NCBI GenBank assembly: GCA_024405215.1
Contig: JAKSPB010000002.1
Span: 1 to 64,000 of the forward strand
Origin: Lentisphaeria bacterium
GTDB lineage: Bacteria > Verrucomicrobiota > Lentisphaeria > Oligosphaerales > Oligosphaeraceae
Reading direction: 5' to 3'
Length of the DNA stretch: 64,000 bases
Shown: positions 2,809 through 44,300 of the stretch, in pieces
Numbering within the stretch: position 1 is the first letter of the stretch
Layout of the letters: each line of letters starts with the position of its first letter
Notes under the pieces: generated by a model
What the model saw: the letters and a program-made list of their open reading frames with translations, nothing else
Database searches by the model: none
What the model was told of the DNA's origin: nothing
Program-made: the position numbers and the translations under genes

Positions 2809-5800
2809 ATGGCTACTTACGATGTTACAGTTGGAAGCGGGCAAACAGTCTACGGTCAGAAAGACAGTAGTAACCGCGATATGCGTTCGTATCTGGTCCA
2901 AAGTGGTGGAACGCTGGATGTGCAATGCAAGGCCTGGAAACCTAACAAGACGATCACAATTGAACCAGGCGGACGTCTCATTAAAGATGGAGCTTTTGAA
3001 ACTTGGACCCATATTCAGTCCACGGTCACCATTGGGACAGACGGAAGTGAAACCAGATCAAAGCTTAGTCAGAGTTCTTCTGCTTATCCGTGGTCAATTT
3101 CCACACTTTACAATGGCAAATTGTATGCCTACAGCACCGATATCTGGCTGGGGGACATGGGAGCAGTCGGTACAGTCAATCTCAAGGATTGCACCGTGAA
3201 ATTGGATGGTATCCTTGCCACGGGGGTGAATAGCTTCTATAAACAGACATTCACAAACACCACGGTGACAGTCAAGGGACATGCCATTCGGAAAGAGGCA
3301 ACGTATTTCAGCGCGGAAGGAACCATTCTTGGATTGACATTGGATAATTCCACCATCACCGTTGATGACGGTGATGCGGACACGGTGGCCGAAAAGGTCG
3401 TCTTTAAGACCACCACCATGAAGAACAACTCGTCCGTTACGGTTGAATCCGGCACTTATGTGGAAGTTGCATCTGGCAATACAGTAACAATGGATGCAAC
3501 CAGCAAACTGAACGTCGGAACCCTGACCAACAAGGGCAAGCTGTCTCTGGTGGCAGGCGATGCAAGCACCGCTTCTGTCAATCTCACAGGCTATGCAGGC
3601 ACTGGTACCATCACCGTTGACATGAAGAATGCAACGGAAGCGATGTACCTTCTGATCGACAGCACTGGTGCCTCAATGACTCTCGCTGACTACGGCACTC
3701 TGACATTTACCAACAACACCAATGGCTATCATGGACTGGTCATCAACAACGACCTCTATGCGGCGAACATTAATCCGGACATGTCTGTCATCGCCGTCAA
3801 CGCTGCCTGGACCGACAAGACTGTCGGCGAGGCCATCGCCATTGGCGACAAGACCTACTATTTCGGCGTCAATGCGTTCGACCAGATGGCCAAGTTTATT
3901 CCGTCTCTGGAAGGCGGAACAATCATCGCCTACGGCAACGGCAAGGTCGCCGCTACCGAAACCACAGCTGGCGAAGGCATTGAAATCAATAATTCCGGAA
4001 CATACAGCATCTCCGGTGAAGAATGGAGCGATCTGGGTTATCTGCAGCTCAATTCCGAAAAGGCCGTGCTTGATGAACGCATCGTTGTCAATATCGACGA
4101 TTCCAATCTGGTGGCCAACAAGGTCCAGGCCCGCCGTGACGCAGACTACTACATCACCAACTCCCACCTTGATTTCAACAACAACACGCCTTCCCGCGGC
4201 TATACCTGCATCTACGCGAACTCCACGCTGAACCTGACCAATTCCGTCTACGGATATAATGCCTACGTCGGTAACAGCGCCGACATTGTTGCCGGACGCG
4301 CCGGCATTGATGCAACCAAGATTGGTCCCATGGACAACAAGGCGAAGAGCGCCATGCAGATTTGCGGCAAGCTGATTGCCGACAACTCCACCCTCCTGAC
4401 CGTGACAGGCGATGATACCATCGGCTTCGGTGTTCTGGACAAGGGCTATGTGGAACTCAAAGATTCAGTGCTGTATGCAGGCGCCATCGCCGTTGGTCTC
4501 GCACAGAGCGATGCAAAGAAGAAGAGCCAGGACACGGGCGTGGATGTTGCCACGATGGTTCTGGACAACTCCGTGCTGATTCGCCAGCATGCCGACAACT
4601 TCAAACTGGACATCGGATATTCCAGTGGCGTCAATGGCAAGCTGATCGTCAAGAACGACAGTCTGGTTGACCGCGCCGATGCGCCGATGAAGATTGCCGC
4701 CGGCAGCGAACTGGAAGTCAGTGGCTCCACGGTCAAAGTTTCCGCGCTGAACAACGCTGGCACCATCACCATCGACGCCACAAGCCAGATTATCGCAACC
4801 TCCTTCAGTGGCGCCAACGGGACCATCACCGTCGACATGACTGGTGCTTCCGGTGATCTCGTCAAGCTCTTTGACGTCACCGGCACAGGCGATTCCACCT
4901 TCGGCAGCTACAGCCTTGCCGCCGGCAAGGCTAACGGCTATGCGCTTCTTGCCATGGACAACGATCTCTACGCTATCAAGGCCGATCTTTCTAATCTTGT
5001 TGTCAATGCAGAATGGAGCGGAACTGTTGCAGGCACGACCATCACTGTTGATACTGTTGACTACATTTACGGCGTCAATGCGTTCGACAACATGGCAGGC
5101 GCTGCTAAGGCAGCCTTGACTGCCGGTGAATCCAATATCAAGGTCATGGGCAACGCCCCGATCGTTGCGGGCAGTGCCTTCGGCGACCAAGATGTTACCA
5201 TCACAGGCAACGCCACATTCAAGTGGAATCCATGGATGTACATCGGCCGTGACGCTTCACAGGCTTTTACCACGCCAGACGCGACGGTTACCTTCGACGG
5301 CGCGACCATTGCGCGTGATCCTGCCAATGGCGACCAGAGCATCCACGTCTCCGGTGCCAAGAAGAACTCCACTTCCACCGGCAACGGCACTCTGAACATC
5401 GTCAATGGCAGCGACATCACTACCGAACACATCGTCGACAGAAATGTCATCAATCTCACAGACAGTAAGTTGACTGTGACAAACTACATCAACGTCCATG
5501 GCCGTGATGCAAGTGAATCTGTCAGTGGCGAAGATGACACCGCATATCTGAATGTTGAGAACTCCACCCTCAAGATCACTGGCCAGCCGTTGGAAATCGG
5601 ACAGGAAGGAAAGGGAATCGTCAATCTGACCGACTCCACGCTTGAGACCAATAGCATCTATGCGATGGCCAAGGGCACTCTCAATGTCACCGACTCTACG
5701 GTGAGTGTGAGCGGCGCGTTTACCAACAAGGGCAACTTCACGTTCAACTATGGCAGCACAATCTCCGTAGGTTCCTTCAATGGCGCCGATGGTACCATCA

Positions 5801-8800
5801 CCGTGGATATGACCGGCGCAGATCCAGATAATGCTTTCCAAATCAAGCTGGTGGATGTCACTGGCACTGGTGCATCGGATTTCGGTAACTACAGCATGGC
5901 TTCTGGAAAGGACAACGGCTACTCGCTGGTGGTTATTGACAATGACCTCTGCGCCATGGCAGCCGACACCTCCGTCCTTGTTGTCAATGCCGCCTATAGC
6001 GACAAGACCAATGGCGAGCCCATCATTCTTGGCAACAGAGTCTACTACTACGGTGTCAACGCCTTCTCCAACATGGCTGACGCAGCAAAGGCCGCAAAGA
6101 CTGGTGCTGACACCGAGATCCAGATCAAGGGCACAGACCCCATTGTTTCTGGCAGCGCCTTCGGCGACCAGAACATCACCATCAAGGGCAATGGCACATT
6201 CCAGTGGCAGGGCTGGATGTTCATCGGCCGCGACGCTTCTCAGGCAGTCTCCACAAAGGACGCAACGGTTACCTTCGACGGCGCAACCATCGCACGCGCC
6301 GCTTCTTCTGGCGACCAGAGCATCCACGTCTCCGGACAGGAAGGCGACGGCTCCTCCAAGGGCAATGGCACCCTGAACATCACCAACGGCAGCGATATCG
6401 CCACCGACTGGATCGTCAATAAGAACATCATCAACATCGACAAGGGCAGCAAGCTCACCACGAATTTCTTTGGCATCGCCGGTCGTCCCGCTTCCGAAAC
6501 TCCCACCGGCGAAGATGCCACTGCAATTCTCAACGTTGATGCCGCCACCGTGAACGTGGGCAATAATGCCTTCGGCCTCAAGCTCGGCAACGAGGGCAAC
6601 GGCATCGTCAATCTGACCAACGGCGCAGTACTCAACGCCACCAGCATCCTCAACGAAGCAAAGGGCACCATCAATGTGGATGGCTCCACACTGACCGCAA
6701 CTGGCACAGTGACAAACGCAGGCACCATCACCATCGATGCCACCAGCGTCTTCTCCGCCGCCGCCTTCAGCGGCGCCAACGGCACCATCACCGTGGACAT
6801 GACCGATGCAACAGACAGCACCATCATGCTGGTGAATGTCACCGGCACTGGCAACTCCAATTTCGGTGACTACTCATTCGTCACTGGAAAGGACAATGGC
6901 TACACTCTGGTGGTCATTGACAATGACCTCTATGCCTCCACTGCCAATATCTCACGTCTGGTTGTTGACGCGGCATGGAGCACAAAGAACATTGGCGAAA
7001 AGGTTTACACCGACACCACAACAGGAGAGGAGTTCTTCTATGGCGTCAATGCCTTCGACAAGTTCTTCAGCGCAGTCCAGATGGCGGCGGATAGAACTGA
7101 GGTCAAGCGCATCACAGTTCTCAGCAACATCACCGAGACCATCGCGAACGACTACGAGATCGGTCAGGATCTTGTCATTGACACTGTGGCTGACGGCAAT
7201 GTGGTCATCGATGCGAATAGCAACGATACCTGGGCAATGATGAGCGTCAAAAGCGCAAGCGGCTCGATCACCATCGAGAAGGGTGTCGAAATCAAGAATG
7301 TCAGACAGTGGATTGTCGGATACTACGAAGCAGACAATGCGGCGCATACACTGAACATCAACGGCAAGCTGACCATGGGCCAGATGGCTCTCTGGAGCGC
7401 CAATTCCAAGGCTGCAGGCACCGTGAACATCAATTCGGACGCCGATGTCTATATGGCTATGGGCGACGGTGTGGTTGACTTCCGCGACAATGCCGCAGTC
7501 AACGTGACTGGCACACTTGCCGATACAAAGGATGAGACTCTCGCTTCAGCAAAGAAGCAGCTGCATGGCGGTTATATCCAGATTCGTCCACAGGCTGGTG
7601 TGGAGAACTCCTTCAACCTGAAGGATACCTACGTTGGCGATGTTGCATGGATGAGAGAGAACACCAATGGTGCAACTGGCAAGTTCACCATGAACATGGA
7701 CAACTCCGCGCTGTCTCTTGGAAGCATCAATCTGTCCAGCGTCAACGCAACCCTGAATGTGGAGAACGGCAGCCGCCTGCTGACTGCCAACGAGGCAGCT
7801 CTCGGCTCCAGTGCCTCCATCAATCTTGAGGACTCCGAGTTCAAGGCCGGCACACTCACTAACAATGGTGCTGTGAATGTCTACGGCGAAAGCAAGCTGA
7901 ACATTGCGGCGGCCACAGGCAATGCCATCGCTCTGCAGGATGGTGCAACGCTGGCCGATTCCAACATGGGTGGTGCAGTCAGCGCCTACGGTGCAGCCAC
8001 CATTACGGCCAGCACCATCACAGGAGCTGTTAATGTTGGCTACAACGGCTACGACACTGCAGCCGACACACTGACCTTCGTTGGTGAAAACAAGACTGGT
8101 GCCCTCTATGTTGGACGCGATGCAGAAAGCGATCTCGTGGATACGCTGAACTTCGCGGCTGATTCAGAGACGACCACCTCTGGCAACCTCTACATTCGCC
8201 ATACCGGCAACGTCAACGTGGCCAGCGGAGCCAAGGCTAACGTATTCGGCTATCTGCTGAACTACGGTACGGTCAACGTGACCGACGCCGAACTCACTGT
8301 GGTTCCTCGCACCGACGGCGCCTCCGAACTGGTGGTCACCGGCCGTCCCAACAAGAAAGCCAACGGGGGTGCCAAGATGACGGTGGATGGCTCCACTGTC
8401 ACCGCGGGCATCCTCTCCGTTGGCCAAACTACCGGCGGACATATCGGCACCGAGAATGACGACAGCGGCAGCGGCGAAGTCACCCTGAAGAACGGCTCTG
8501 TGATGAACCTGACCGGCAACAATGGCGTGGCACTCTTCATCCAGGAGCGCTTCGATGGTATGGAAGCCGTCAAGATGGACATTGACGCCTCCACGGTCAA
8601 TGCCACAGGCTCCGCCGCAATCGGTGCCAATTCGGAGTTGAATGTATCCAATGGTGCAAAGATGACAGTCACCGGCGCGCTGACCAACGCAGGTACCATC
8701 ACCATTGACACAGAGTCCGACTTCAAGGTTACTGGCCTTACCACCAATTCCGGAACCATCGTCATTGATGCAGCCAACTTCGCTGGTGGCACAAAGAAAG

Positions 8801-11800
8801 TCGTTGATTTCAACGGTTTTGCAACAGGCGAAGGACTTACAGATTATGCGGTGGTAGACAATCTGGCCGATGGCATCAGTGTTCGCTGGGAAGATGATGG
8901 TGACGTCATCCTTTCCGATGCGCAGAGGACGGTCTACAAAGTCAATCATGAATGGGCGACTGCTGGTTACTCCTTCGGCGATGCTATTGAAGGCGAAGAC
9001 GGATTTGTCTTCGGTGTCAACGCATTTGCCGATGTGGATGACGCCTTCCTCGATGAAATGTACTACAACTACTATTACGAGGATGGTCTGACCAAAGTCA
9101 TCATTGATGCCGCAGATGGTTACCAGTACGGCAACGGAACGACCAGCACCTGGTTCTGGTTCTACAACGACATCACCATTGAAACAGTCAACGGCATGGC
9201 CGATCTGACTCAGATTAAAGGCTCCGTCAATTACTTCCAGCCCTGCGGCGAAACGTTTGTTCTGGAGGGTGACGGAATCAAAACCAATAGCAATCAGTGG
9301 ACATGGCCAGAAAACATTACGGTCAATGCCGATGTTCAAACCGGCTACACGGTTCTCTGTACAGACATGACCGTCAAGGCTGGAGTGACGTATGTTGCTG
9401 CTTCCTGGATTGGCGCATACGAAACCGCAGACGTGTTCGGTGCTATGACCGTCGGCGCAACACTGAGTGTTGGAACAGCAGACGCCTCCATCTATGGCTC
9501 AAGCCAGACGACTGCAATCTACACGCTGAGTGGTTCTTCTGCCAGCTTGAATGCGAACAGCGTTCTTGTGAATACGGTCAACGCCCTCGACTGGACGACA
9601 GATGAAAACGAGATGCGCGTCGTTGATGGCGCAACTGCAACCGTTACCAATACACTGACCAACAAGGGCATTGTCAAGATTGACGATGCTACACTGGCAG
9701 CCAAGGCCATCACCAACGCTGGCACCATCCAGCTGGATGGCGCGGCGGTTCTGACGGCTGCCAACGGCATCGCGAACAATGGAAAGGTGACCATCGGTTC
9801 CGCCGATGCTGCCTTCAGCGGAGCGCTGAACGCCACCATCACGGGCAATGGCACTGTCCAGGTGAAGAATGCCGACATGACAATCGGCTCCACCAACAGC
9901 ATCGCAGCCAAGAATGTGGCTGTTGGCGGAATGACCGAGACGGAACTGGGCGACAACACGCCAGGCGCCAAGGTCACCGTGAACGCTGACGGCAGCTTCA
10001 TCGGTTCCGGCGAACTGTGGGTCGGTTCCGAAAACGACAACCGCCAGACTGCCGAAACCCACGACCACTCCTACATCCTGGAAGTCAATGGCGGCCGCAT
10101 CCATGGCGGCAACCAGTTCACCGTCCGCAACGATGGCTATCTCTACGCCTACAACGGCGCGACCGTCACCGGCGGCGCCGCTCCCATCCGCGGCGATGTG
10201 CTCCTGAGCGGCGAAGGCACGTTGATGAGCTTCAGCAACTCCGCCAACATCTACGGCGAAGCCATGGGCGCTGGCGAAAACAATGGTGTCTCCACTGTTC
10301 TTGTCCAGAATGGTGCATCCTTTGTCGTCAATGGTCCAGTCTCACTCGGCAAGGCCGGTGTTGACACCCGCCAGGGCAATCTCGTCCTTGACAATGGTTC
10401 TGCTACCGTCGGAAGTCTGTTGCTCAACACCTCTGGCATCGTCACTCTGAAGAACGGCGGTGCGCTGACCGTCAGTGGCGCTCTCACCAACGACGGCGCC
10501 ATCAACGTTGGCAGCGACGCCTCCATCACCGTTGGCAGCATGGTCTCCACTGGCTCCGTCAATCTGGCCAGCGGTGCTCTGCTCACCTTCGACGGCGCTC
10601 TCAACAACACGGGCGCCATCAACGTCGACATGACTGGCCTCACGGGCTTCGAATACAAGGTCATCGACTTCGTCGACGACAACGCCGACGCATCCACGCT
10701 GGGCACTCTTGAAGCCACCAACGACTACAAACTGGAAGTCCGCGACGGCGACCTCTTCGCCGTCAAGGACATCAATACCGATCTGGTCTACGTCAACACC
10801 GCATGGAACGGCACGGCAGCCAACACACTGGTCTACACCGACGAAGAGCCCAACGGCTACTTCGGCCAGAACGCCTTCGCAGCCATCGCCGACGCTACTG
10901 CCCTCACTCCCGAAAAGATGGTCGTCCTCGGCGGTAGCTACAGTTCCAAGACGCAGTACATGAACGGCGTGGATACGACCATTGAGAATGGTATATTCGC
11001 TAACACTCACGGTGGTCAGTTGTTGAAGGCGGACAAATACAAGACTCAGTTCGTCGAGGCTGATACCAACCTTACCATAGAAAATGGCACATTCACCATT
11101 CTCTCCGGTGCAGACCGCTTCAGCGGTGGTCTGGTTGGACGCGTTGGCGATGCAAATCTGACCATTGACGGCGGTAAATTTAATGCCGTTGTCTGTGGAG
11201 GTATTTATGTCACCAGTTCGACAACAGCTGTTGACCATGCGGTTCTAGAAGGTGATGTGAATCTGACCATCAATGGTGGAATCTTCACAAAGGATGTGTA
11301 TGGTGGTAACGTTGCAGCCAATACTAGCATTGCCAACCGTGCAAATCTGGCTGGCAACGTCAATCTGACCATTGATGCTTCACAAAATGCTATCTCCTTC
11401 GCAGGAGATGTCGTGGTCGGTTCCTATGGCGATGGCCATATTGATGGTGATGTTACTGTTACCGTTAAGGGATTGGGAAGCAATCTCAGCTTCACAAATA
11501 AGCTGATCGGCGCCAATGGATCTACCACATACAAGACAGATTCCAGCACGAAGATTCGCACGTTTATGACAACCATCTCTGGTAGCCGTAATCTGGCCTT
11601 CAATGGCTTCACAGGTGACTTCAAGGCTGACCCCGGCGCATTCCAGAACATCAGTTTCACAGGCGAAAGCGATGTCAACTTCACCAAGTCTACTCTGAAC
11701 ATGGCAGACGCAACCAGCTGGAATTTCGAGTTCGGCAGCAGTGCCTCCAATATCGCCATCAACAACTTCAAGGGCGATACCCTCTCCTTCGACTTGGCCG

Positions 11801-12012
11801 ATTGGGAAGAGGACACGGACTCCTGGGATGTCGTCTCCGGAAAGGCTTCAAGCTTCACCGGATGGGATGATTCTAGCACGAAGGTCTATCTGGATGGCAC
11901 TCTGGCAAGCTGGAACAGCGACATATCCGGCTGGGCCACCGCCGACTTCAAGTTGACTCTGGAGGACGACAATTCCAACAAGAAGCTCACCATCGCCGCT
12001 CTTAACGCATAA
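2809..12012 (+). CDS. Giant beta-strand repeat protein, adhesin/AIDA-like, 3067 aa
   Basis: The protein is almost entirely short beta-rich repeats full of N, T, G and V, with recurrent phrases such as GTITVDMT, NLTDSTL, TLNIVNGSDI and LTNAGTITID, typical of right-handed beta-helix surface proteins (AIDA/pectin-lyase-like). Six copies of an F/YGxNAF motif (near nt 3860, 5070, 6050, 7040, 9015 and 10865) mark larger modules. Three of these, beginning SF(S/N)GA(N/D)GTITVDMT at about residues 665, 989 and 1319, recur every 325-330 residues. The start is set by AAGGA (2796-2800) 8 bases before the ATG. The N-terminus (ATYDVTVGSGQTVYG) has no Sec signal and the C-terminus has no autotransporter barrel, so export would need another route, for example type I secretion (inference). 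A strong terminator follows. Confidence 0.85.
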   Translation: MATYDVTVGSGQTVYGQKDSSNRDMRSYLVQSGGTLDVQCKAWKPNKTITIEPGGRLIKDGAFETWTHIQSTVTIGTDGSETRSKLSQSSSAYPWSISTLYNGKLYAYSTDIWLGDMGAVGTVNLKDCTVKLDGILATGVNSFYKQTFTNTTVTVKGHAIRKEATYFSAEGTILGLTLDNSTITVDDGDADTVAEKVVFKTTTMKNNSSVTVESGTYVEVASGNTVTMDATSKLNVGTLTNKGKLSLVAGDASTASVNLTGYAGTGTITVDMKNATEAMYLLIDSTGASMTLADYGTLTFTNNTNGYHGLVINNDLYAANINPDMSVIAVNAAWTDKTVGEAIAIGDKTYYFGVNAFDQMAKFIPSLEGGTIIAYGNGKVAATETTAGEGIEINNSGTYSISGEEWSDLGYLQLNSEKAVLDERIVVNIDDSNLVANKVQARRDADYYITNSHLDFNNNTPSRGYTCIYANSTLNLTNSVYGYNAYVGNSADIVAGRAGIDATKIGPMDNKAKSAMQICGKLIADNSTLLTVTGDDTIGFGVLDKGYVELKDSVLYAGAIAVGLAQSDAKKKSQDTGVDVATMVLDNSVLIRQHADNFKLDIGYSSGVNGKLIVKNDSLVDRADAPMKIAAGSELEVSGSTVKVSALNNAGTITIDATSQIIATSFSGANGTITVDMTGASGDLVKLFDVTGTGDSTFGSYSLAAGKANGYALLAMDNDLYAIKADLSNLVVNAEWSGTVAGTTITVDTVDYIYGVNAFDNMAGAAKAALTAGESNIKVMGNAPIVAGSAFGDQDVTITGNATFKWNPWMYIGRDASQAFTTPDATVTFDGATIARDPANGDQSIHVSGAKKNSTSTGNGTLNIVNGSDITTEHIVDRNVINLTDSKLTVTNYINVHGRDASESVSGEDDTAYLNVENSTLKITGQPLEIGQEGKGIVNLTDSTLETNSIYAMAKGTLNVTDSTVSVSGAFTNKGNFTFNYGSTISVGSFNGADGTITVDMTGADPDNAFQIKLVDVTGTGASDFGNYSMASGKDNGYSLVVIDNDLCAMAADTSVLVVNAAYSDKTNGEPIILGNRVYYYGVNAFSNMADAAKAAKTGADTEIQIKGTDPIVSGSAFGDQNITIKGNGTFQWQGWMFIGRDASQAVSTKDATVTFDGATIARAASSGDQSIHVSGQEGDGSSKGNGTLNITNGSDIATDWIVNKNIINIDKGSKLTTNFFGIAGRPASETPTGEDATAILNVDAATVNVGNNAFGLKLGNEGNGIVNLTNGAVLNATSILNEAKGTINVDGSTLTATGTVTNAGTITIDATSVFSAAAFSGANGTITVDMTDATDSTIMLVNVTGTGNSNFGDYSFVTGKDNGYTLVVIDNDLYASTANISRLVVDAAWSTKNIGEKVYTDTTTGEEFFYGVNAFDKFFSAVQMAADRTEVKRITVLSNITETIANDYEIGQDLVIDTVADGNVVIDANSNDTWAMMSVKSASGSITIEKGVEIKNVRQWIVGYYEADNAAHTLNINGKLTMGQMALWSANSKAAGTVNINSDADVYMAMGDGVVDFRDNAAVNVTGTLADTKDETLASAKKQLHGGYIQIRPQAGVENSFNLKDTYVGDVAWMRENTNGATGKFTMNMDNSALSLGSINLSSVNATLNVENGSRLLTANEAALGSSASINLEDSEFKAGTLTNNGAVNVYGESKLNIAAATGNAIALQDGATLADSNMGGAVSAYGAATITASTITGAVNVGYNGYDTAADTLTFVGENKTGALYVGRDAESDLVDTLNFAADSETTTSGNLYIRHTGNVNVASGAKANVFGYLLNYGTVNVTDAELTVVPRTDGASELVVTGRPNKKANGGAKMTVDGSTVTAGILSVGQTTGGHIGTENDDSGSGEVTLKNGSVMNLTGNNGVALFIQERFDGMEAVKMDIDASTVNATGSAAIGANSELNVSNGAKMTVTGALTNAGTITIDTESDFKVTGLTTNSGTIVIDAANFAGGTKKVVDFNGFATGEGLTDYAVVDNLADGISVRWEDDGDVILSDAQRTVYKVNHEWATAGYSFGDAIEGEDGFVFGVNAFADVDDAFLDEMYYNYYYEDGLTKVIIDAADGYQYGNGTTSTWFWFYNDITIETVNGMADLTQIKGSVNYFQPCGETFVLEGDGIKTNSNQWTWPENITVNADVQTGYTVLCTDMTVKAGVTYVAASWIGAYETADVFGAMTVGATLSVGTADASIYGSSQTTAIYTLSGSSASLNANSVLVNTVNALDWTTDENEMRVVDGATATVTNTLTNKGIVKIDDATLAAKAITNAGTIQLDGAAVLTAANGIANNGKVTIGSADAAFSGALNATITGNGTVQVKNADMTIGSTNSIAAKNVAVGGMTETELGDNTPGAKVTVNADGSFIGSGELWVGSENDNRQTAETHDHSYILEVNGGRIHGGNQFTVRNDGYLYAYNGATVTGGAAPIRGDVLLSGEGTLMSFSNSANIYGEAMGAGENNGVSTVLVQNGASFVVNGPVSLGKAGVDTRQGNLVLDNGSATVGSLLLNTSGIVTLKNGGALTVSGALTNDGAINVGSDASITVGSMVSTGSVNLASGALLTFDGALNNTGAINVDMTGLTGFEYKVIDFVDDNADASTLGTLEATNDYKLEVRDGDLFAVKDINTDLVYVNTAWNGTAANTLVYTDEEPNGYFGQNAFAAIADATALTPEKMVVLGGSYSSKTQYMNGVDTTIENGIFANTHGGQLLKADKYKTQFVEADTNLTIENGTFTILSGADRFSGGLVGRVGDANLTIDGGKFNAVVCGGIYVTSSTTAVDHAVLEGDVNLTINGGIFTKDVYGGNVAANTSIANRANLAGNVNLTIDASQNAISFAGDVVVGSYGDGHIDGDVTVTVKGLGSNLSFTNKLIGANGSTTYKTDSSTKIRTFMTTISGSRNLAFNGFTGDFKADPGAFQNISFTGESDVNFTKSTLNMADATSWNFEFGSSASNIAINNFKGDTLSFDLADWEEDTDSWDVVSGKASSFTGWDDSSTKVYLDGTLASWNSDISGWATADFKLTLEDDNSNKKLTIAALNA
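4801..7060 (+). repeat. About 1-kb in-gene tandem modules of the giant gene
   Basis: Three successive modules begin near 4801, 5774 and 6763. The first two are very similar along their length: each has the GTITVDMTG opening, SNFGxYS-type middle, GYxLVVIDNDL, VVNAxxS, YGVNAF, IVxGSAFGDQ, WMxIGRDASQA and ATVTFDGATIAR. The third diverges after YGVNAF. The pattern indicates internal tandem duplication, with older, more diverged copies on both sides. Confidence 0.75.
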
Positions 12013-12020
12013 ACCAAATA

Positions 12021-12067
12021 ACAATCTGAGGCATGTCTGGGGCATGCTTCAGATTGTCAGTTTTTTC
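12021..12067 (+). terminator. Rho-independent terminator after the giant gene
   Basis: ACAATCTGAGGCATG pairs with CATGCTTCAGATTGT (15 bp, one G-T wobble) and is followed after CAG by six T residues. It lies 9 bases after the stop of the 3067-aa gene and separates it from the peptide cassette. Confidence 0.85.
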
Positions 12068-12133
12068 TCTAATACGCTGTGTGCCAAACGATGGAAGATA
12101 CAGCGGAATCATAAAACCTAGAAAATACCAAAC

Positions 12134-12271
12134 ATGGAAGACAAAAAAGACATGATGTACGAGGTTCCTTCATTGGAGGAGTTGAAGTTGGTGAATCTAG
12201 TCAAAGGAGCTGAAGGGGAACCATTTAAGTCCTCTGAAGATAATAATGAGGAGGATGAAGAAGCGGACTAA
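12134..12271 (+). CDS. 45-aa acidic peptide with YxxPxL motif, candidate RiPP precursor
   Basis: A short frame from ATG 12134 encodes 45 residues. The lysine-rich start is followed by Y9-E-V-P12-S-L14 and the stretch EELKLVNLVKGAEGEPF; the end is strongly acidic, with a Ser pair (S33, S34) just before it and no Cys or Thr. Y-x-x-P-x-L is the leader motif that PqqD-like recognition proteins bind in lasso-peptide precursors (established knowledge), and a PqqD-like gene lies two genes downstream. The HPr-kinase-like gene starts within about 6-15 bases, so the three are probably one transcript beginning after the terminator at 12021-12067. There is no good ribosome-binding site. No mature core can be assigned. 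It could be a substrate of the adjacent kinase (inference). Confidence 0.6.
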   Translation: MEDKKDMMYEVPSLEELKLVNLVKGAEGEPFKSSEDNNEEDEEAD

Positions 12272-12276
12272 ATTAT

Positions 12277-13173
12277 TTGGGTGCCTTGCCTTATTTTCTG
12301 ACAATCCCCCTGTATGGTTATGGTAGTATAACTATACAGTTTTGCCACAACACAATTTCTTCCCAAACATTGAGTCGTTTTGTCCAATTGTTGGGAAGAG
12401 ATTGTAATGTGGTTGGTTCTGACGGTATCTTTCAACCTAATCTTATTTATTCTCGGTTAGAGGCAGATAGGGATGAAACCTTTAATCGTGTTGTATCTAA
12501 ATTCTCTACACTCTATTATTCAGTTAAATTTCGTTTTTTTTTGAAGGTCCTTAGGGAGTGCATGGATAAGCCTCCACAAGAATGCGTATCCTTTTATCGG
12601 CGAACCTTGACTTTATCTTTTTTCTCCGCCATCCTTCGTGGTTCAAAGCTGGCGGTGGTTCATGGGGCGTTGTTGGAGATGCCGGATGGGCGCGGCGTGC
12701 TACTTCATGCGGAAAGTAACGTTGGAAAGAGCACCACGTGCCGCAGATGGGAGGCCGCTGGCGGCAAATATACATCGGACGACATGATCCTTCTGGAATA
12801 CGATACGCCAGATGGAATCATTGCGCATCCGTTGCCCACGTGGAGTCGTTGCGCGCAATCTCTTGAAGGGCTGTGCTATCCAGTGGAGAAGTGCATTCCT
12901 CTGGCAGGCGTTATGGTTTTGAGCCGTGCCGCTGGCGACGAACCCGAGGCGATTCGTTCCATCCCTTATCCGGAATACCTCTGTCAGGTCTATCAGTCCT
13001 GCATCTATTTCCATCGTCTCTGGATCAAAGAAAACTTTCCTGAAGCAGAACAGAAGGCGCTCATCGCGAACAACCAGGCCTGTGCGCGGAAGTTGTGCAG
13101 TTTGTTTCCGCCGAGGGCGTTGATGGCGCGGTTGGACGGCGACTTGCGGGAGACGCTGAAGGAGTTCCTATGA
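12277..13173 (+). CDS. HPr kinase-like P-loop protein (ScmC-like)
   Basis: 298 aa if the TTG at 12277 is used; another in-frame TTG is at 12286 and no clear ribosome-binding site decides. The second half carries a Walker A motif AESNVGKS (A145-S152) followed by TT, and SDD (D168-D169) about 17 residues later, the arrangement of HPr serine kinase/phosphorylase-like domains. Such proteins occur in RiPP loci: lasso-peptide tailoring kinases phosphorylate a precursor Ser, and ScmC of the SynChlorMet cassette is HprK-related (established knowledge). The N-terminal 130 residues are unlike classic HprK. The gene ends in an ATGA overlap with the PqqD-like gene. The first ~370 bases are clearly AT-rich compared with the rest. 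A role in phosphorylating the 45-aa peptide is inference. Confidence 0.75.
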   Translation: MGALPYFLTIPLYGYGSITIQFCHNTISSQTLSRFVQLLGRDCNVVGSDGIFQPNLIYSRLEADRDETFNRVVSKFSTLYYSVKFRFFLKVLRECMDKPPQECVSFYRRTLTLSFFSAILRGSKLAVVHGALLEMPDGRGVLLHAESNVGKSTTCRRWEAAGGKYTSDDMILLEYDTPDGIIAHPLPTWSRCAQSLEGLCYPVEKCIPLAGVMVLSRAAGDEPEAIRSIPYPEYLCQVYQSCIYFHRLWIKENFPEAEQKALIANNQACARKLCSLFPPRALMARLDGDLRETLKEFL

Positions 13174-13433
13174 TCCAGAGCAATCCTTTCATATTGTTTG
13201 AAGAGACGGAGGAGGATGGGCCGTTTCTCTGCAATCCGGAGACCAATCGCGTTTTGAAGCTGAATGGCATCGGCGCGCTGATCTGGAAGCAGCTGGAAGA
13301 CGGCGCGGATTCTGCGGAGGCGATTGCCATAAAGCTCTCCACGGTCTTTCCGTCAGTCCCTCAAGAGCGTCTGTTGCATGACACGCAGGCTTTTCTGGCC
13401 ATGCTGCAAGCATACGGGCTGCTGGCTTCATAG
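13170..13433 (+). CDS. PqqD-like peptide-recognition (RRE) protein
   Basis: 87 aa, the usual size for stand-alone PqqD-like proteins. The core NPETNRVLKLNGIGALIW (about residues 22-39) followed by an acidic helix, a hydrophobic helix and a C-terminal GLL is the standard PqqD winged-helix pattern. These domains bind leader peptides and present them to modifying enzymes. The ATG overlaps the kinase stop (ATGA) and AAGGAG lies 5 bases upstream, inside the kinase gene, so translation is probably coupled. In this window no radical SAM enzyme, cyclase, protease or exporter accompanies it. The only nearby small peptide is the 45-aa YxxPxL protein. Confidence 0.85.
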   Translation: MIQSNPFILFEETEEDGPFLCNPETNRVLKLNGIGALIWKQLEDGADSAEAIAIKLSTVFPSVPQERLLHDTQAFLAMLQAYGLLAS

Positions 13434-13449
13434 GGAAATTACATACTTG

Positions 13450-13556
13450 AGTTGCCTGCGCGTTCTGATGAGGTGTTTTTTCCGAGGCTTGCGCTTCGGG
13501 CGCGGGACAAGGCCATATCGTCAAGCAATAACGGAAACTTAGGTATATAATTCCCC
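13450..13556 (+). repeat. Dispersed repeat copy A
   Basis: Direct repeat of 13669-13776, about three quarters identical by eye. The best conserved parts are TTTCCGA.GCTTGCGC, CGGGCGC, CAAGC and ACGG.AAC.TAGG.ATA. It follows the stop of the PqqD-like gene by about 16 bases. Confidence 0.6.
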
Positions 13557-13635
13557 CTCGTAGCCCCTCCGGACGAGTCGGGCGGACAAGGGCAAATGTC
13601 GTGGACGTTTCGCGCAGTAGGGGATTTTATGCTTG

Positions 13636-13661
13636 CATGGGCCTTTTGCAAGAGGCTCATG
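13636..13661. repeat. Imperfect palindrome, TTTGCAA family
   Basis: CATGGGCCT and AGGCTCATG pair (9 bp, one G-T) around TTTGCAAG. It is related to the palindromes at 1648, 16043 and 16513. Confidence 0.5.
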
Positions 13662-13668
13662 TCCACGA

Positions 13669-13776
13669 AGTCGACTGCGTGTCCAGACGCGGCATTCTTT
13701 CCGATGCTTGCGCCCCGGGCGCAGGACGAAGTCCGTGCCGCCAAGCCATGACGGCAACCTAGGGATACCGTTTCCC
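13669..13776 (+). repeat. Dispersed repeat copy B
   Basis: Second copy of the 105-bp repeat, in the same orientation as copy A and about 220 bases downstream. In this copy the GC-rich middle CGCCCCGGGCGC forms a local inverted repeat, consistent with a structured intergenic element. Confidence 0.6.
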
Positions 13777-13930
13777 GAAATGGGAACGGTAGAGGCAGTT
13801 CCAAGAGTCCATTTGAACGTCTTTCTCCTGATTTGTCGGACAGAAATGGACACTTCTGCCAAAAAAATTCAAAAAAGGGATTATGTTACATATTGATTAC
13901 ATTGGATTTTGATTTTTTTTGTTGGATGAC

Positions 13931-16033
13931 ATGGGCACTGAAGAGCGCTATTATCTAGGAATAGACATCGGCTCCACCACCTTCAAGGCGGTGGTGATTA
14001 CCGAAGACGGCAAGATTCTGCACAAGACCTACCAGCGTACCAAGCCGGTGGAGTCTGGCACCATCGCCTGTTCCGGGCATTGTTCTGCCTGCGGACGCTG
14101 CAACATGGGCGCCATCAAGAGAACGGTGCAGGATTTTCTCTCCCATGCCAATTTGAAGGAAGAGCAGATCACCTGCACGGTCGTGACCGGCAGCCAGATC
14201 GTGGAGGATACGAAGCGCTTCATCCACTTCGACTATCAGGTGAGCGAGGTCTCCGCCCACGTGGCTGGCGCGAAGTTCTGCAATCCCGAAGTGGATGCGA
14301 TCATTGATTGCGGCGGCCAGGACAGCAAGTGCATGATCTACGATGAGAAGATGGGGATGTGGATCTCCATGATGTCCGGCGTTTGCGCGGCGGGAACCGG
14401 CAGCTATCTGGACAATGTGGCGGCCAAGTTGAACATTCCCGTCGAGGAGATTGCCGACAAGGTCAACTACAGCGCGGAAATCGAGTTCAGTTCCGTGTGC
14501 GCCGTGCTTTCCGCCACCTCCATCAACAAATTCAAGAACCGCATCCCTGTCAGCGATCTGCTGGCCGGCGCCTGCCGTGCGCAGGCGCGCGCCATTTTGA
14601 ATGGCGTGGGGCAGCTCCTGCTGCACCATCCCGGACGCAAGATCCAGTTCCAGGGCGGCGTGGCTTCCAATGGCGCTGTCGCCCATTATCTTCGCGAAAT
14701 CACGGGCAGCGAAGTCATCATTCCGGAGAACAGCAACGTGATGGGCGCCCTTGGCGCAGCGGTTTTGGCACGTCAATACAAAAACCTGAATGGCCAGCTG
14801 GACACGGAGAAGATCGCCTACGAACCTACGCCGCAGCGTTCTGCGCAGATGCGCGTGGCCAGCACCAAGCGCTCGTTCTTCAGCCATGACAAGAGCAAGC
14901 CGCTTGTTTGGCGCAACCTCTTCTATCCCACGGAAATTCTCAATGCCTTCAAGACCCGCATCCTGACGCTTGAGACCTTCGCCGCGCTCTTCGGGCGCAG
15001 CGAGAAGCGCGTCAAGGCCGCGCTGGATGTCGCGGCGCGCAAGGGCTTCGACCAGCAGACCTGCTCTTTCCTGCGCGTGCTGGAGGGAATGAAGCTGGAG
15101 AAGCCGGCATTCGCGGTTTCCACCAGCCAGCCCTGCCAGCAGGGCGAGCGCATTTTCGCCGACCTGGCGGATACGTATGGCTTCGAGGAGGACTACTACT
15201 CCTTGCAGACGCCTCTTACGAACGTGGAAGACAACGGCCTGGCTGTCGAGCAGATTGCCGAGGGGCTTGACCGCTCCATCCACATGATGGAGAAGAGCCT
15301 GGGGCGCAAGATGGATCCGGGGCAGCTCCAGGAGGCCTGCGAGCTCTCCAACAAAGCTGCGGACTACTCCCGCAAGTGCAATGAGTTGCGCTGGACTTCC
15401 CCGCCGTTGATCCGCGGTGCGCAGGCCGTCTATAATTCCGTGATTTTCAGTCAGTTGTGGGGGACGCAGGAACTGGTTGACATCCAGAAGGCGTATTACG
15501 AGGAGCTCCAGATGAAGAAGGAGTGGGCCGAGAAACGCTACAAGCTGGAGGATACCCATCGTCTGCTTTGGCTACACCTGCCGCCTTTTTATAACTCCCA
15601 GTACCTGGACCTTATGGAGAACACCTGCAACGCCCCCATCGTTTTCGAGGAGACGAACTACGTTGGCTGGGAGCCGCTGAATCCGCTGGATCCCCTGCGC
15701 TCTCTCGCCAAGAAGATGCTCTCTTCCGGCTTCCTGGATCCCAAGCTTCGTGTTTCCTATGTCACCAAGCTTGCGAAGATCGCGAAGTTCACGGGATGCG
15801 TTCTTTATACCCATGGCTTTGGACGCTGCAGCATGGCGGACCGCCCGTTCACCAAGCGTCTGCGCGAGGGGCTGGAGAAGATCGGCCTGCCGCTTCTGAC
15901 GCTGGAAGGCGACTGCATGGACGCTTCCATCGACCCGTGTTCCACCGCCACGAAGATAGCTTCCTTCGTGGAATCCCTCAACCTGAAGAAATACGGCAAT
16001 CTCTTCGGACGCCTGAAGCCTGTCTTTGCCTAG
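13931..16033 (+). CDS. 2-hydroxyacyl-CoA dehydratase activase fused to dehydratase D-type subunit
   Basis: 700 aa from the ATG at 13931; a TTG at 13919 would add 4 residues. Residues 1 to about 275 are a BcrAD/BadFG ATPase: GIDIGSTTFKAVV phosphate loop, DCGGQDSK, and two cysteines in GVCAAGTGSYLD and SSVCAVLSA that in relatives hold a [4Fe-4S] cluster at the dimer interface. From about residue 375 to the end it matches the HGD-D family of 2-hydroxyglutaryl-CoA dehydratase subunits, with cysteines in QQTCSF, GFGRCSMADRP and LEGDCMDASIDP that could ligate a second cluster. Classical systems use a separate activator and two dehydratase subunits; here activator and one subunit form one chain, and no partner is adjacent. 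Substrate unknown. Such enzymes are oxygen-sensitive, implying an anaerobe. Confidence 0.85.
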   Translation: MGTEERYYLGIDIGSTTFKAVVITEDGKILHKTYQRTKPVESGTIACSGHCSACGRCNMGAIKRTVQDFLSHANLKEEQITCTVVTGSQIVEDTKRFIHFDYQVSEVSAHVAGAKFCNPEVDAIIDCGGQDSKCMIYDEKMGMWISMMSGVCAAGTGSYLDNVAAKLNIPVEEIADKVNYSAEIEFSSVCAVLSATSINKFKNRIPVSDLLAGACRAQARAILNGVGQLLLHHPGRKIQFQGGVASNGAVAHYLREITGSEVIIPENSNVMGALGAAVLARQYKNLNGQLDTEKIAYEPTPQRSAQMRVASTKRSFFSHDKSKPLVWRNLFYPTEILNAFKTRILTLETFAALFGRSEKRVKAALDVAARKGFDQQTCSFLRVLEGMKLEKPAFAVSTSQPCQQGERIFADLADTYGFEEDYYSLQTPLTNVEDNGLAVEQIAEGLDRSIHMMEKSLGRKMDPGQLQEACELSNKAADYSRKCNELRWTSPPLIRGAQAVYNSVIFSQLWGTQELVDIQKAYYEELQMKKEWAEKRYKLEDTHRLLWLHLPPFYNSQYLDLMENTCNAPIVFEETNYVGWEPLNPLDPLRSLAKKMLSSGFLDPKLRVSYVTKLAKIAKFTGCVLYTHGFGRCSMADRPFTKRLREGLEKIGLPLLTLEGDCMDASIDPCSTATKIASFVESLNLKKYGNLFGRLKPVFA

Positions 16034-38069: not shown

Positions 38070-38373
38070 GAGGACAATGGAAAAGGGAGGGGAGTTCAAA
38101 ATCTTTGGAAAAAATGTTCCCAGAGGTTTTTTTTGTGTGCCGTTGTGGGTAAATACGGTTTTTTTTTTCATTATGAATTAGCAAATTCGGGAAAATGGGT
38201 TATTGTGTAAGATTGCATTCTTGGACTCTTTTCGGGCGTACCGTGTCTGCATGGCATGGCGCCTTGCCTTTGCGCATTCCCTGGAAAAAAGTCCGACATA
38301 CGTTTTTGGATTATCATAAGTAATTCTGTTAGTAATAATTGTGTTAAAACTCAAAACACTGGGAGTACCGAAG
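38070..38373. other. AT-rich intergenic region before the giant protease gene
   Basis: 304 bases with no gene. Near the recombinase end is a weak terminator (38140-38168). The remainder is AT-rich and likely carries the promoter of the 16.7-kb gene, but I could not fix -35/-10 boxes. GGGAG at 38360-38364 serves as ribosome-binding site for the ATG at 38374. Confidence 0.5.
38140..38168 (+). terminator. Weak terminator after xerD
   Basis: GCCGT and ACGG(T) form a short stem around a ~11-base loop, followed by a run of ten T residues (38159-38168). The stem is short but the T-run is strong. Confidence 0.4.
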
Positions 38374-41300
38374 ATGCTGAAACGAATCGTGCGTCTTAGT
38401 CTCATGGCATTCGCGCTGGTGATCGGCGTGAATCTCTCTGGTGCCTCTGTCGATCAGGACACCGCCCGGCTCTTTGCCGAAAACTGGCTTTCCGCCGGTT
38501 CCAACCCCATCGTCGCCGATGGAATCGCCCGCGAGGCAGCCGCCACGGTGGCGGTCGCCAATGGCGGGACCGTCCTGGCCTACGGCGTGAACTTCGCCCC
38601 CAAGGGTTTCGTCGTCGTGGCCGCCGATGACCGCATCGCTCCCGTCGTCTCCTACAGCGCCGACGGCGAGTTCCAGGATGACGCAGCCAGCCCCATGCAC
38701 GCCCTGCTGGTGGCCGACCTCTCCAACCGCCTGGCTGTCGCCGAGGCCGAAGCCCCCGCTTCCGCCATCCGCGCAGCCGCCGATCTTCCCGAATACTACC
38801 AGGGAAATCTGGCGCAGTGGAACCAGTACCTTAATAAAGGGACTCGTGCGCAAGGCACATACGCCTTGAACGACGTCCGCGTCCCCTCCCTGGTCAAGAC
38901 CCAGTGGAGTCAGAACAGCGCAGGCAGCATTCCCGTCTATTACAACTACTACTGCCCCACCAAGACGACAACGGGCTTTGCCATCGTTCCCGGCGATGCC
39001 AACAACGCCGTCACCGGCTGCTCCGTGACTGCCGTCGCGCAGATCCTCCGCTATTATGAGTGGCCCCAGGACCGTATCGGCCAGCAATACGGCAAAGTTA
39101 CCATCGGCTATGAGACGACTGGGCCGTATGCCCGACGCAGCGTCACCTATTATCTGCGTGGCGGCGATGACAACGGCGGCGCCTACGAGTGGGACAAGAT
39201 GCTCTACACTCCCGGACTTCCCAGCACGGATCCCAACTATCAGGAAACCACTGACGAAAACATCAAGGCGACTGCCCGACTGATGGCTGACGTGGGTATT
39301 CTAAATCACGTGACCTATTTCCAAGACGACAAGGGACAGACCAGCGGAAACGCATCTCCCTCCGACCTCATGAACAAGCTGCACTACCTGAATGTGGCCG
39401 GCGGCGATTCCAACGGGCTGCTTGGCGTTCTGGCAGACTTGGATGCCCATCGTCCCTTCTATGTTTCCATTTCCTGCCCGATTCCCGACAGCGACGGACA
39501 CGCCATTGTCGGTGACGGCTACGGCTATATGGACGGTCGTCTCTATGTCCACCTGAATCTGGGCTGGGGCTATGCCAATGGCGGCAACAACAACGCCTGG
39601 TACAATACCGACGAGCATTTCAACACCGGCGACAGCCTCTGGAGTTCCAGTGTCAGCTGGACAGGCGCCCACAACTTCTACCGCCAGTATCTGCAGAAGA
39701 ACGAAAGCAAGGGCGGTCGTATCATCTCCGGTCGTGTGACCGATGCCAACGGCCAGCCCGTCTATGGCGTGAAAGCCTCCATCCGCAAGAAGGGCGCGAG
39801 CGAAACCTTCCTGACCATGCTTGCTTGGGATGATCCCGTCGAGTGCACGGAATACGAGGCGTTCAAAGGCGTGAAGGTCGATGCCCATGCGCAGATCGAC
39901 GCAGCCGCCCAGAGTGTTGCTGGCGGCCTGGCTTCTGCCGAAAACGGCTCCGTCCTCGGCTTCGGCCCTGGATTCTACCGCAACTGCACGGATGCCCAGG
40001 GTATTTGGGCCATTGACAAGGTCGCAGCCGGCGACTATGAAATCGTCCTGGAGAAGGACGGCTATGTTTTCCTCGGCGTCACGGATGTCACCGTTAAGAG
40101 CAACGCCAACCAGTGGGGTCTGAATTTCATCGCGGTTCCCGAGGCCATCGGCGCCCTGGAGTTCGACAGCTGGTGGATCGAGGATGGCAAGGCCTATCTG
40201 AAGTTCAACCGCGCGGTCGGCGCAGTCAAGGCTGATCTTTCCAAGATCACGATCGGCGGTGTGGCGCTTACTTCTGCCAACGCCGCCATTTCCGCCAACA
40301 GCGACACCATCGTCATCGACTTGAGTGACCTTAGCGTTTCCGGCAATCTGGCCATTGCCCCTGGATTCCTCTATTACGATATGAACGGCGGTTACGCAAC
40401 CGAAAAGACCAACCGCCAAGGCAATGTCCTGATCGCGCCTGTCGTCGATGGCGAGGCCGAGGGTTCTTCCGTTGCCAGCAAGGTGGTCGCAATCACCCGT
40501 GACGGTGATTTCGAGACTACCGACAGCGTCCTCTCCTGGACGGTCGGCGGTGATTTCTCCGGCCTGAAGGCTTCCGATTTCCAGGTGACGGTTTTCGACA
40601 GCTACAAGGGGTCCGAGGGAAGCTTCGAGGCCGTTGCCGGCGCCACTCTTCCCAAGGCCGTGATTGGCGACTGGGATGCCAGCAATGGCAAGCTGACCGT
40701 AAATGTTGGCGAGGGCGTGGGTTTCGTCCGCGTGGACTACATCCCTGCCGATCTGGCTGCCGACGCGGCTTTCGTTGCCGGCGAAGTCTATCGCGTGAAC
40801 AACCAGGCTCCTCGCCTGCTGACTGCCGAAATCAAGACGAACAACGATTATGAGGACAACGGCTATGTGGTCCTGACCTTCAACAAGCCCGTCGGCGGAA
40901 AGGCCGGCGCCGCTCCCAGCGCGAATGACTTCTATGTCCTGCTGAACCGCAACGGCGGCACCGCTTCCAAGGTGCGTGTCTTGGCCATCACGGACGCTGC
41001 GGGCGAGGTCCTGGACGGTCCTGCCAGCGTCTTCCGCGTCTATCTGGATGTGGAGTCCATCGCCGACGACGTCTACGCGCCTTCCGGTGTCGAGACCATC
41101 GAAATCAAGCCCTACGCCAATTCCCTCTTCGATGCAAATGGCAATGCCGTCGCAGAAGGCTGCACCAGCGGCGAACTCCCCCTGCTGGACTTCATGGGCT
41201 TCTACATCGCCAACGGCAGTATCGCTCCGGACAATGGCTCCTTGACGATCCGCTTCTCCCGCCGTGTCCTCGGAAACGACGACACCATCTGGGATTTCGG

Positions 41301-44300
41301 CATGCTTGGAAATCTCGTCAATCTGAAACTGGATTCCGAGAAGGACGGTTCCCTCTACCAGTCCACCTCCATCACCACGGATAATGTCGAGGCCTACGTC
41401 TACTACGACAATGGCGACATTGAGATGTTGTCCCTGAATGGCGGCACCGATGAAAGTCCCACGATCCGCCATCGCATCGACACTTCCTTCGTCATGCTGG
41501 ACTTCCTCGCCAAGGGGAATGCCTCTGTCAACAAGACTCTGCTGGATCCCGTCTATCAGCAGCTGGTGAATGACCGTCTGCCGCAGAAAGTTTATGTCTT
41601 CTTCTACGACATCTACGACGAAGAGGGTGCAGCCCTTGGTGACGACAATTCCATCGGCTATGTCGAGCTGAACAGCCAGTTCACTCCCGGCTACCAGACG
41701 CTGGTTCCTCCCATGTTCACCAACGCGAAGGGCGCATATACCTTCTGTGTTGCCGACCGCGGAAACAGCCAGGCAGGCACTGACGGCTACTGGGTTTCCG
41801 TCGCAGCGACGGATAAAGATCCCATGGTCACGATCAAGGACAATTTGACGATCGTCGACGGCACGATTGATCCTGATCTGGAAGCCGGTGTCGCAATCGG
41901 CGACGATATGGACGAGGGTCTGGAATACTACGGCATCTACTACCGCGACCTGGATGGCGACGGCCGTATCGACGCCGTTGACCTGAACTTCCACAATCCC
42001 TATGTCGAAACTCCTGGCGGCTCCGGTCGTCCTGCGGAACTGGTCGTCGGAAGCCAGGCGCTTTCCTCCTTCCATGTCTATGTCCAGAAGGAACTGAATG
42101 ACTGGAAGGGCGACAAGACCGGAATGGATTTCCCCAATGCTCCCGAAAAAGAGTACGATTGGGAAACCTTGCCGCAGTGGGATGAATATCCGCTTGTTGG
42201 CGGTAAAGACCATGCAATTCGCGCAATGGTCGACCACGGTTTCAGGAAAGACTGGACGGTTGTTCCTGTCACTGGCGCATCCGTCGTCGCTCAGAACGTG
42301 AATCTGGCCGACGTGTCCGTCACCGGCTACACGGGCATGGTTTCCACCCTGCGCCTCACCCTTGACCAGAGCGCCGTCCTGCCTCGCACCGACGGCGACC
42401 GCGCATTGCTGGTGGCCTATGCCGCTCCATACGCCTACGGTTCCTCCAGTACTTACAACGGCATTCACAATTCCGGTGTCAACGCCACGCCGCTCAAGGC
42501 AGACGACAAGGGAAACAACCCCGGCATGACGGAGGCAAGAATTGCCAGGGACTTCTCTGCCGACGATGAAAAGGCCGGAATCTACTGGATCCGCCCTGCC
42601 GACGAGGCGAGAGACGGCAAGGGAAGGCTGGATTCCATCTGGGTCTGCGATTCCTTCGGTCCTGTCATGGCATGGGACGGCGCCGCGCCTGTCCCCGTCA
42701 GCGCAGTCGCCTGGCGCGCCACTCCGTTCGTGAAATACGGCGAAACTGCCTCCGCCGACGGTTCCCTGGATACCTACGAGTATCTTGATGTGGTCTTCTC
42801 CGAACCCATCGCCTTCGCTTCCGACTTCGCCCTGTCCGGCGCCGGCGCCGTGACTGCCAATGGTTCCCGCGGCGCTTCCCTGCTGGATGACTACACGGTC
42901 CGCTTCCAGCTCTTCACCGAGTCTTCCGCCGCCGCCACCCAGACTTCCTCCGGCGACCAGAGCCAGGGCGCTTCCACGCTGGGCAAGAAGGGGACCGACT
43001 TCTCCTTCTACGGTGCCCTGTATCCTGTTTCCAGCGCTGTGGAACATGCGACGAGACCCGACGCCCAGGAAAACGTGAACTACTCTGAGAAGATGCACTT
43101 CACGGCCAATGCCACCGGTGTCTCCCCGATCCTGTCCAGCTACGCGGTTGCCGGCAATGGCAGCATTCCTGTTCTGAAGATCGTCAATCGTACGGCCAGC
43201 ATCACCACCCAGGGTGGTACAACCTTCTCCACCACTGCCACTGGCACGGTTGCGCTGCTTTCCAATGGCGGCGGATTCAAGATGGGCGATGCCACCGCCG
43301 TCTTCGGCGATACTTGCACGGTTGCCGCAGCCGCCAACAGCGTTCCCGGCGCCAGCTTCTATGCCGGTCTTGCCAACCTCAACGTGGTCAACACCACGAT
43401 CAGGAATGTCGCCGGCGGCGTAACCAGAGAAGACAGCGTCGGTATCCTGGGCTACGACAACAATCTCAAGGCTCCGGCTCCCAATGCCGCGGTGCCCTCC
43501 GCCAATGCCACGGATACGACTCCTGCAAACATGGTCATGAGCGGCCCGATCTTCAACTATGTGAAGGCCTTTGCCGCCGCACAGGGCGATTATACGAACC
43601 ACATCAACAGCAATTCCGCTGTCAAGGCCGTTGACATCAAGATGAACTTCCCCGCCGGCTATAAGCTGACTGCCGTGAAGGTCCGCCTGGTGGATACTTC
43701 CCTGGGATGCTTCGATCCCATGAGCGCACTGGCGCCTCTGGCCGATGACGGTGCGAAGAGCGGTGTCTATCTGGAGCAGAACGGCAAGGCCCTCATGGTT
43801 TCCGCCGACGGCCTTGGCTGGAGCGACTGGCAGCGCAATGAGGCTGGCATGCTCTATCGCGAGACCACTCTGAAGCCTCTGGCTGGCGTCTCCACCGACG
43901 CAGCCATCTCCGTTTGCGTGAGAACAAGTTCCAGCTTCAGTCTGGGCGCCTCCTTCTTCGTGGAGATCCCGGATGACGGCATCACCTTTGGCACCTATTC
44001 CACTGTGGATGCCCTGGCAAATGCCTGGGGCACCGCCGACGGCACCCAGGGCTCCGCTTTCACCAGCGGAATGTTCCGCGATACGAACCACGACCTGCAG
44101 TGGGCGTATGGCGAAGGCATTGCCTACGCCGATGACATCAGCAGCTACCGCGCTCCCATCTGGGATGCCGCAGGCGTGGCGGATGTGTATTCCTTCTGCA
44201 CCAGCCGTTACCTGCTGATGGAGAATGGCATCAATACCCGCAATGTCTACTACGCGAAGAAGGGTGGCAATCTCAATCCGGATTCCAAGCAGCAGGTTGG

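Follow-up and report, generated by a model that had tools for sequence, protein, structure and literature searches.

In this study, we revisited a small gene cassette in a stretch of 64,000 nucleotides from a Lentisphaeria bacterium (contig JAKSPB010000002.1; the window), which a sequence-only reading had described as a minimal, orphan, RiPP-like set of three genes. The features on which the discussion turns are all on the forward strand:

2809 to 12012, + strand: giant repeat protein, 3067 aa (ORF list, C-terminal domain alignment)
11680 to 12009, + strand: C-terminal domain of the giant, 110 aa, predicted all-beta (alignment; model pLDDT 89.3)
12021 to 12057, + strand: terminator-like stem-loop, a stem of 17 pairs with a T tail, in the gap between giant and peptide genes
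12134 to 12271, + strand: precursor-like peptide, 45 aa, MEDKKDMMYEVPSLEELKLVNLVK-GAEGEPFKSSEDNNEEDEEAD (ORF list, alignment, peptide profile)
12277 to 13173, + strand: putative peptide kinase of predicted HprK fold, 298 aa, with H129, GKST at 150-153, D168 and D169 (domain models, alignment, predicted structure, tree)
13170 to 13433, + strand: PqqD-like RiPP recognition element (RRE), 87 aa, with N32 and D71 (domain models, alignment)

The peptide, kinase and PqqD genes lie head to tail (ORF list, 12134-13433); the kinase gene begins with a TTG codon 5 nt past the peptide stop, and the PqqD start (13170) overlaps the kinase stop in an ATGA. The trio is confirmed where it had been placed, the PqqD-like protein scoring over the cut-off of Pfam PF05402 and the kinase giving a fold match. 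Its supposed setting, between a terminator and a repeat region, holds on one side only: the terminator-like stem is present at 12021-12057, but a repeat search over 13400-14000 returned zero repeat families. A search of Rfam with the interval 11900-14000 gave zero matches. The same reading had overlooked the giant gene at 2809-12012, which is part of the same recurring unit, as well as an exporter, a secretion system and a PqqD-peptidase fusion encoded elsewhere in the genome.

The closest named model for the kinase is TIGR04249 (ScmC), with an E value of 1.4e-17 and 64 bits against a cut-off of 125, and Hpr_kinase_C matches it weakly. According to its predicted structure (pLDDT 86.9) the protein has the HprK kinase fold, the first structural matches being HPr kinase/phosphatase and PEPCK. 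His129, the P-loop GKxT, Arg157, Asp168-Asp169 and a PTxS motif are invariant across 25 relatives, and these invariants include the His, the P-loop Lys and the paired Asp required by the lasso-peptide kinase BsfK, which targets Ser3 of the core and works far faster with a PqqD-like protein (PMC10368454). The kinase tree places the window protein in a clade with support of 100/96 that has 19 members, 15 of them labelled as lying beside a giant and/or a peptide gene, and the protein is not a metabolic HprK. Its closest relatives sit in other families rather than in its own, so that the sequences hint at horizontal transfer. A second ScmC-like kinase is encoded on contig C42 of the same genome (L035:7296-8285), with no adjoining PqqD or peptide gene; at locus L060 (contig C22 of genome G091) the kinase is a fragment, and the PqqD, peptidase-like and NTP transferase genes are kept. 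The PqqD-like protein of the window matches PF05402 with an E value of 4.4e-14 and reaches 33.8 of the 100 bits needed against the ScmD model. Its N32 is Asn in 46 of 50 aligned proteins and its D71 is Asp in 36 of 50.

The window peptide carries YEVPSL, a YxxPxL leader motif, at residues 9-14; its predicted core starts at G25, with S33 and S34 as the only core Ser residues. A profile built from other genomes' peptides only recovers it at E 3e-6 among the 819 window ORFs, with a runner-up at 1.8, and it is therefore a match beyond chance. Tyr9 and Pro12 are invariant in all 12 peptides aligned, which share the consensus YExPxxxEL...VxG. Among 40 compiled peptides, which were chosen for Y..P, Glu follows the Tyr in 27, Leu/Ile/Val stands at +5 in 34 and Glu/Asp at +7 in 33; similarity is lost beyond a Gly near Tyr+16, where most of the sequences are acidic. 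The peptide frame is kept beside kinase/PqqD pairs in relatives. The window peptide has Glu at core position 3, where only about 29% of cores have Ser/Thr; a strict core-Ser3 rule was rejected, as it fails across the compiled cores. At the loci that have a SPASM radical SAM gene in between those for peptide and kinase (L053, L056 and L057, three loci only and all from one genome), the cores have two or three Cys in 3/3 cases, compared with at least two Cys at 0/21 peptide and kinase loci without a radical SAM gene (p 5e-4). Core Cys content thus tracks enzyme content, which supports the view that the peptides are substrates, and the gene arrangement at the three loci suggests a thioether-type variant. 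Cores with two or three Cys were also seen in giant-linked peptides at L185 and L188.

The giant protein encoded upstream has no visible Sec signal at its N-terminus and ends in ...IAALNA, most of its relatives ending in LA. Its C-terminal domain, which is common to the peptide-paired giants and occurs in 31 of the 198 genomes of the class, is proposed to be a type I secretion signal or a cap; a PDB fold search with this domain found nothing significant (the best match, to pertactin, was weak at E 0.2), and a Pfam search of the giants found zero domains. An ORF with a YxxP motif lies within 260 nt 3' of 31 of 41 distinct giants, a set that includes those whose loci built the domain profile, the figure for other genes being 19 of 309 (p 8e-23), and usually follows the giant stop after 15-50 nt. 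Fifteen of the 31 peptide-followed giants have no kinase within the stretch read; the peptide gene accompanies the giant gene even without a nearby kinase. At the level of whole genomes, and with phylogeny ignored, the kinase is present in 30 of 31 giant-bearing genomes and 27 of 167 others (p 1e-18), and a type I secretion system (T1SS) in 30 of 31 and 76 of 167, respectively (p 2e-8). The genome of the window has further giant-peptide pairs, one on contig C9 and two on C55, and a related peptide twice on C2. The copies on C55, of a giant with its peptide (L171:5725-8004 and 8467-10746), and those on C2, of a surface protein with its peptide (L172:6904-7206 and 12290-12592), are in both cases tandem and near-identical, and reflect either recent duplication or an assembly artefact. 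At L092:2-6419 a peptide gene is flanked by two giant genes, followed by kinase and PqqD genes.

To place the cassette in its wider context, about 85 stretches around kinases and giants were compared, mostly in draft metagenome-assembled genomes (MAGs) in which several contigs end near the loci, with ORFs called by simple rules. The kinase family was found in 57 of 198 Lentisphaeria genomes, where it recurs with giant genes, and the cassette can no longer be called an orphan. A four-row kinase alignment recovered nine loci from contigs, seven of them in Lentisphaeria/Victivallaceae MAGs; a single-protein search of genome contigs gave no matches. Typically a giant repeat protein gene comes first, then the genes for the YExPxL peptide, kinase and PqqD; in relatives these often lead on to genes for a Ser/His signal peptidase, an NTP_transf_5 protein and an ABC exporter of MsbA size, and some loci add a large ABC protein and HlyD. 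The S26 signal-peptidase-like proteins keep GxSM and HR...GDNN. Nor is the cassette minimal, since it goes with the upstream giant gene and with trans-acting parts on contig C43 of its own genome, namely an MsbA-size ABC protein, an HlyB/HlyD-type pair, a second PqqD and a PqqD-signal peptidase fusion with intact Ser/His motifs (YSM and VVHR...GDNN). The single NTP_transf_5 match in this genome lies within a sugar-nucleotide cluster on contig C70 and is not of the cassette type. The large ABC proteins have a degenerate C39-like domain in which the catalytic Cys is missing, as in HlyB, which makes them resemble type I systems for protein secretion; the idea of a C39 exporter that cuts the leader was rejected on the same ground. 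The giants resemble type I secreted giant adhesins of the HlyB/HlyD type in having no Sec signal, a conserved C-terminal domain and, in the same genome, an ABC protein with degenerate C39 domain plus HlyD, but differ from them in that a gene for a peptide with an RRE-type leader lies directly 3' of the giant gene.

In May 2026, Linear Polyphosphorylated Peptides (LPP) were described in Bacillota with the lpp cluster of Paenibacillus alginolyticus (PMC13381572). This cluster encodes a YxxP precursor, the RRE LppB, the HprK-like kinase LppK, the signal-peptidase-like LppS, the NTP transferase LppN and the MsbA-like LppD, and no cyclase; LppK puts phosphates on core Ser3, and Asp70 and Asn33 of LppB hold Tyr-16 and Pro-13 of the leader (PMC13381572). 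The Lentisphaerota loci share the YxxP leader, the discrete PqqD/RRE, the HprK-like kinase, a Ser/His (archaeal-type) signal peptidase and, in the neighbourhoods read, the lack of a recognised cyclase. The peptidase gene adjoins PqqD in relatives and lies outside the window, on C43, in the genome studied here; many relatives also have the NTP transferase and the MsbA-like exporter, of which this genome has the MsbA-size ABC only, on C43. Matched by position, N32 and D71 of PqqD correspond to N33 and D70 of LppB, and the Tyr precedes the core start of LppA by 16 residues, the same distance that separates it from the conserved Gly here. The LPP family, with the same enzyme set and neither cyclase nor radical SAM enzyme, partly anticipates the claim that a system of this kind would be new. 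That the trio is RiPP-like, with peptide phosphorylation as its likely main modification, is supported.

Gene content, gene order, co-occurrence, catalytic motifs and the fold of the kinase being established, we consider it fairly likely that the cassette is an LPP-type linear phosphopeptide pathway whose precursor genes are linked to giant exported proteins and whose leader departs from the LPP consensus. The PqqD-like protein would bind the YEVPSL leader via its conserved Asn and Asp and present the peptide to the kinase, which would phosphorylate a Ser of the acidic core (S33 or S34 in the window peptide). The Ser/His signal-peptidase-like enzyme that is fused to a second PqqD on C43 may then remove the leader by a cut near G25, after which the product would leave through the MsbA-like exporter of that contig. 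The peptide gene would be the partner of the upstream giant, itself exported, we suggest, by the HlyB/HlyD-type system on C43; one enzyme set would serve several giant-peptide pairs per genome, and peptide and giant may act together at the cell surface. Several differences speak against this reading. The LPP leader motif YxxPxVLxHQxIxFETxxS is missing, only YxxPx[LIV] being shared with the Lentisphaerota consensus YExPx[LI]x[ED][LI]; there is no fixed core Ser3, the residue phosphorylated in LppA and BsfA, its place being taken by Glu in the window peptide; the genome has no cassette-type NTP_transf_5; and a terminator-like stem splits giant from peptide. Furthermore, LPP are held by their authors to be limited to Bacillota (PMC13381572). 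Besides phylum and leader, what most sets the Lentisphaerota loci apart from LPP is that the peptide genes lie behind giant secreted-protein genes; they are also scattered over the genome, T1SS genes are linked and some loci have a radical SAM gene.

It is less likely, though it deserves some weight, that the peptide is a guide, whose YxxPxL motif recruits PqqD and kinase to the giant so that the giant is phosphorylated or escorted to the secretion system. This would agree with a peptide gene that is linked to the giant gene and not to that of the kinase, with the co-occurrence of giant and kinase by genome and with a core position 3 that is often not Ser. However, the cores are highly divergent and their number of Cys goes with the presence of the radical SAM gene, as a substrate of modifying enzymes should show, and many loci have a leader-peptidase-like gene.

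A SynChlorMet (ScmC/ScmD) cassette stripped of its radical SAM genes seems very improbable. ScmC and ScmD are the best NCBIfam matches and the nearest named models for kinase and PqqD, and two-radical-SAM cassettes do occur in the class (L119, L120, L123), but both matches are below cut-off, no ScmE/F radical SAM pair adjoins the trio, and the kinases of the two-radical-SAM type lie elsewhere in the tree, separated from the window clade by supported branches. The SynChlorMet-like cassettes at L119, L120, L123 and L058 carry two radical SAM genes together with an HprK-like kinase, a PqqD and an ABC exporter. We give slightly less credit still to a radical SAM maturation enzyme supplied in trans, for which the SPASM gene between peptide and kinase in some relatives (L053, L056, L057) might argue: the window core is free of Cys, compared with two or three at those loci, no radical SAM gene adjoins the window trio, and none of the cassette type was found in the genome, a SPASM search giving one weak match in an unrelated cluster. 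Least credible is a lasso-peptide tailoring module with cyclase and B2 protease encoded elsewhere, since B2 (PF13471) is absent from 20/20 cassette-bearing genomes, no cyclase was recognised on reading the neighbourhoods (as distinct from a cyclase-family search) and the acidic cores are presumably linear, even though HprK kinase, PqqD, NTP transferase and YxxPxL leader are all lasso tailoring parts (PMC8498205, PMC10368454), the phosphorylated lasso peptides paeninodin, pseudomycoidin and Bsf sharing the kinase invariants, the PqqD-like B1 and the NTP transferase, and Bsf also the leader motif.

On the preferred reading, the trio probably makes a phosphorylated peptide and travels with giant secreted-protein genes in gut bacteria of the Lentisphaerota, so that a peptide class described only recently reaches a new phylum and acquires a partner. 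The pathway would thus occur beyond Bacillota and in natural variants, with kinase only or with kinase plus radical SAM enzyme and Cys-rich cores. LPP clusters are often near capsule genes, and no adhesins or surface proteins are mentioned in the text of that report (PMC13381572). A literature search for links between RiPP or PqqD systems and type I secretion or giant adhesins, with subscription papers mostly outside its reach, found none describing such a pairing. More tentatively, and with the odds somewhat against it, we propose that every giant secreted surface protein of this kind has a RiPP-type phosphopeptide of its own as a dedicated functional partner, that one shared enzyme set makes all of these peptides, and that the peptide serves to cap, anchor or release its giant once the latter has been secreted. 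We know of no earlier RiPP that serves a large exported protein, and if true this pairing would be the first known to us. With precursor genes directly behind giant genes and the kinase in nearly all giant-bearing genomes, the purpose of phosphorylated RiPPs becomes testable on one protein pair.

In the interval 38341-55105 the window contains a second giant ORF, of 5195 aa and with a signal-like N-terminus; a downstream ORF in another frame (53813-55105) overlaps it and seems to be its continuation, as if by a frameshift. Lastly, related operons at L043, L045 and L096 encode a short peptide that ends in Ser (YEAPEMTELSA...S), this C-terminal Ser being a possible target by analogy with paeninodin, and an RTX-like giant was seen at the L043 and L045 operons.
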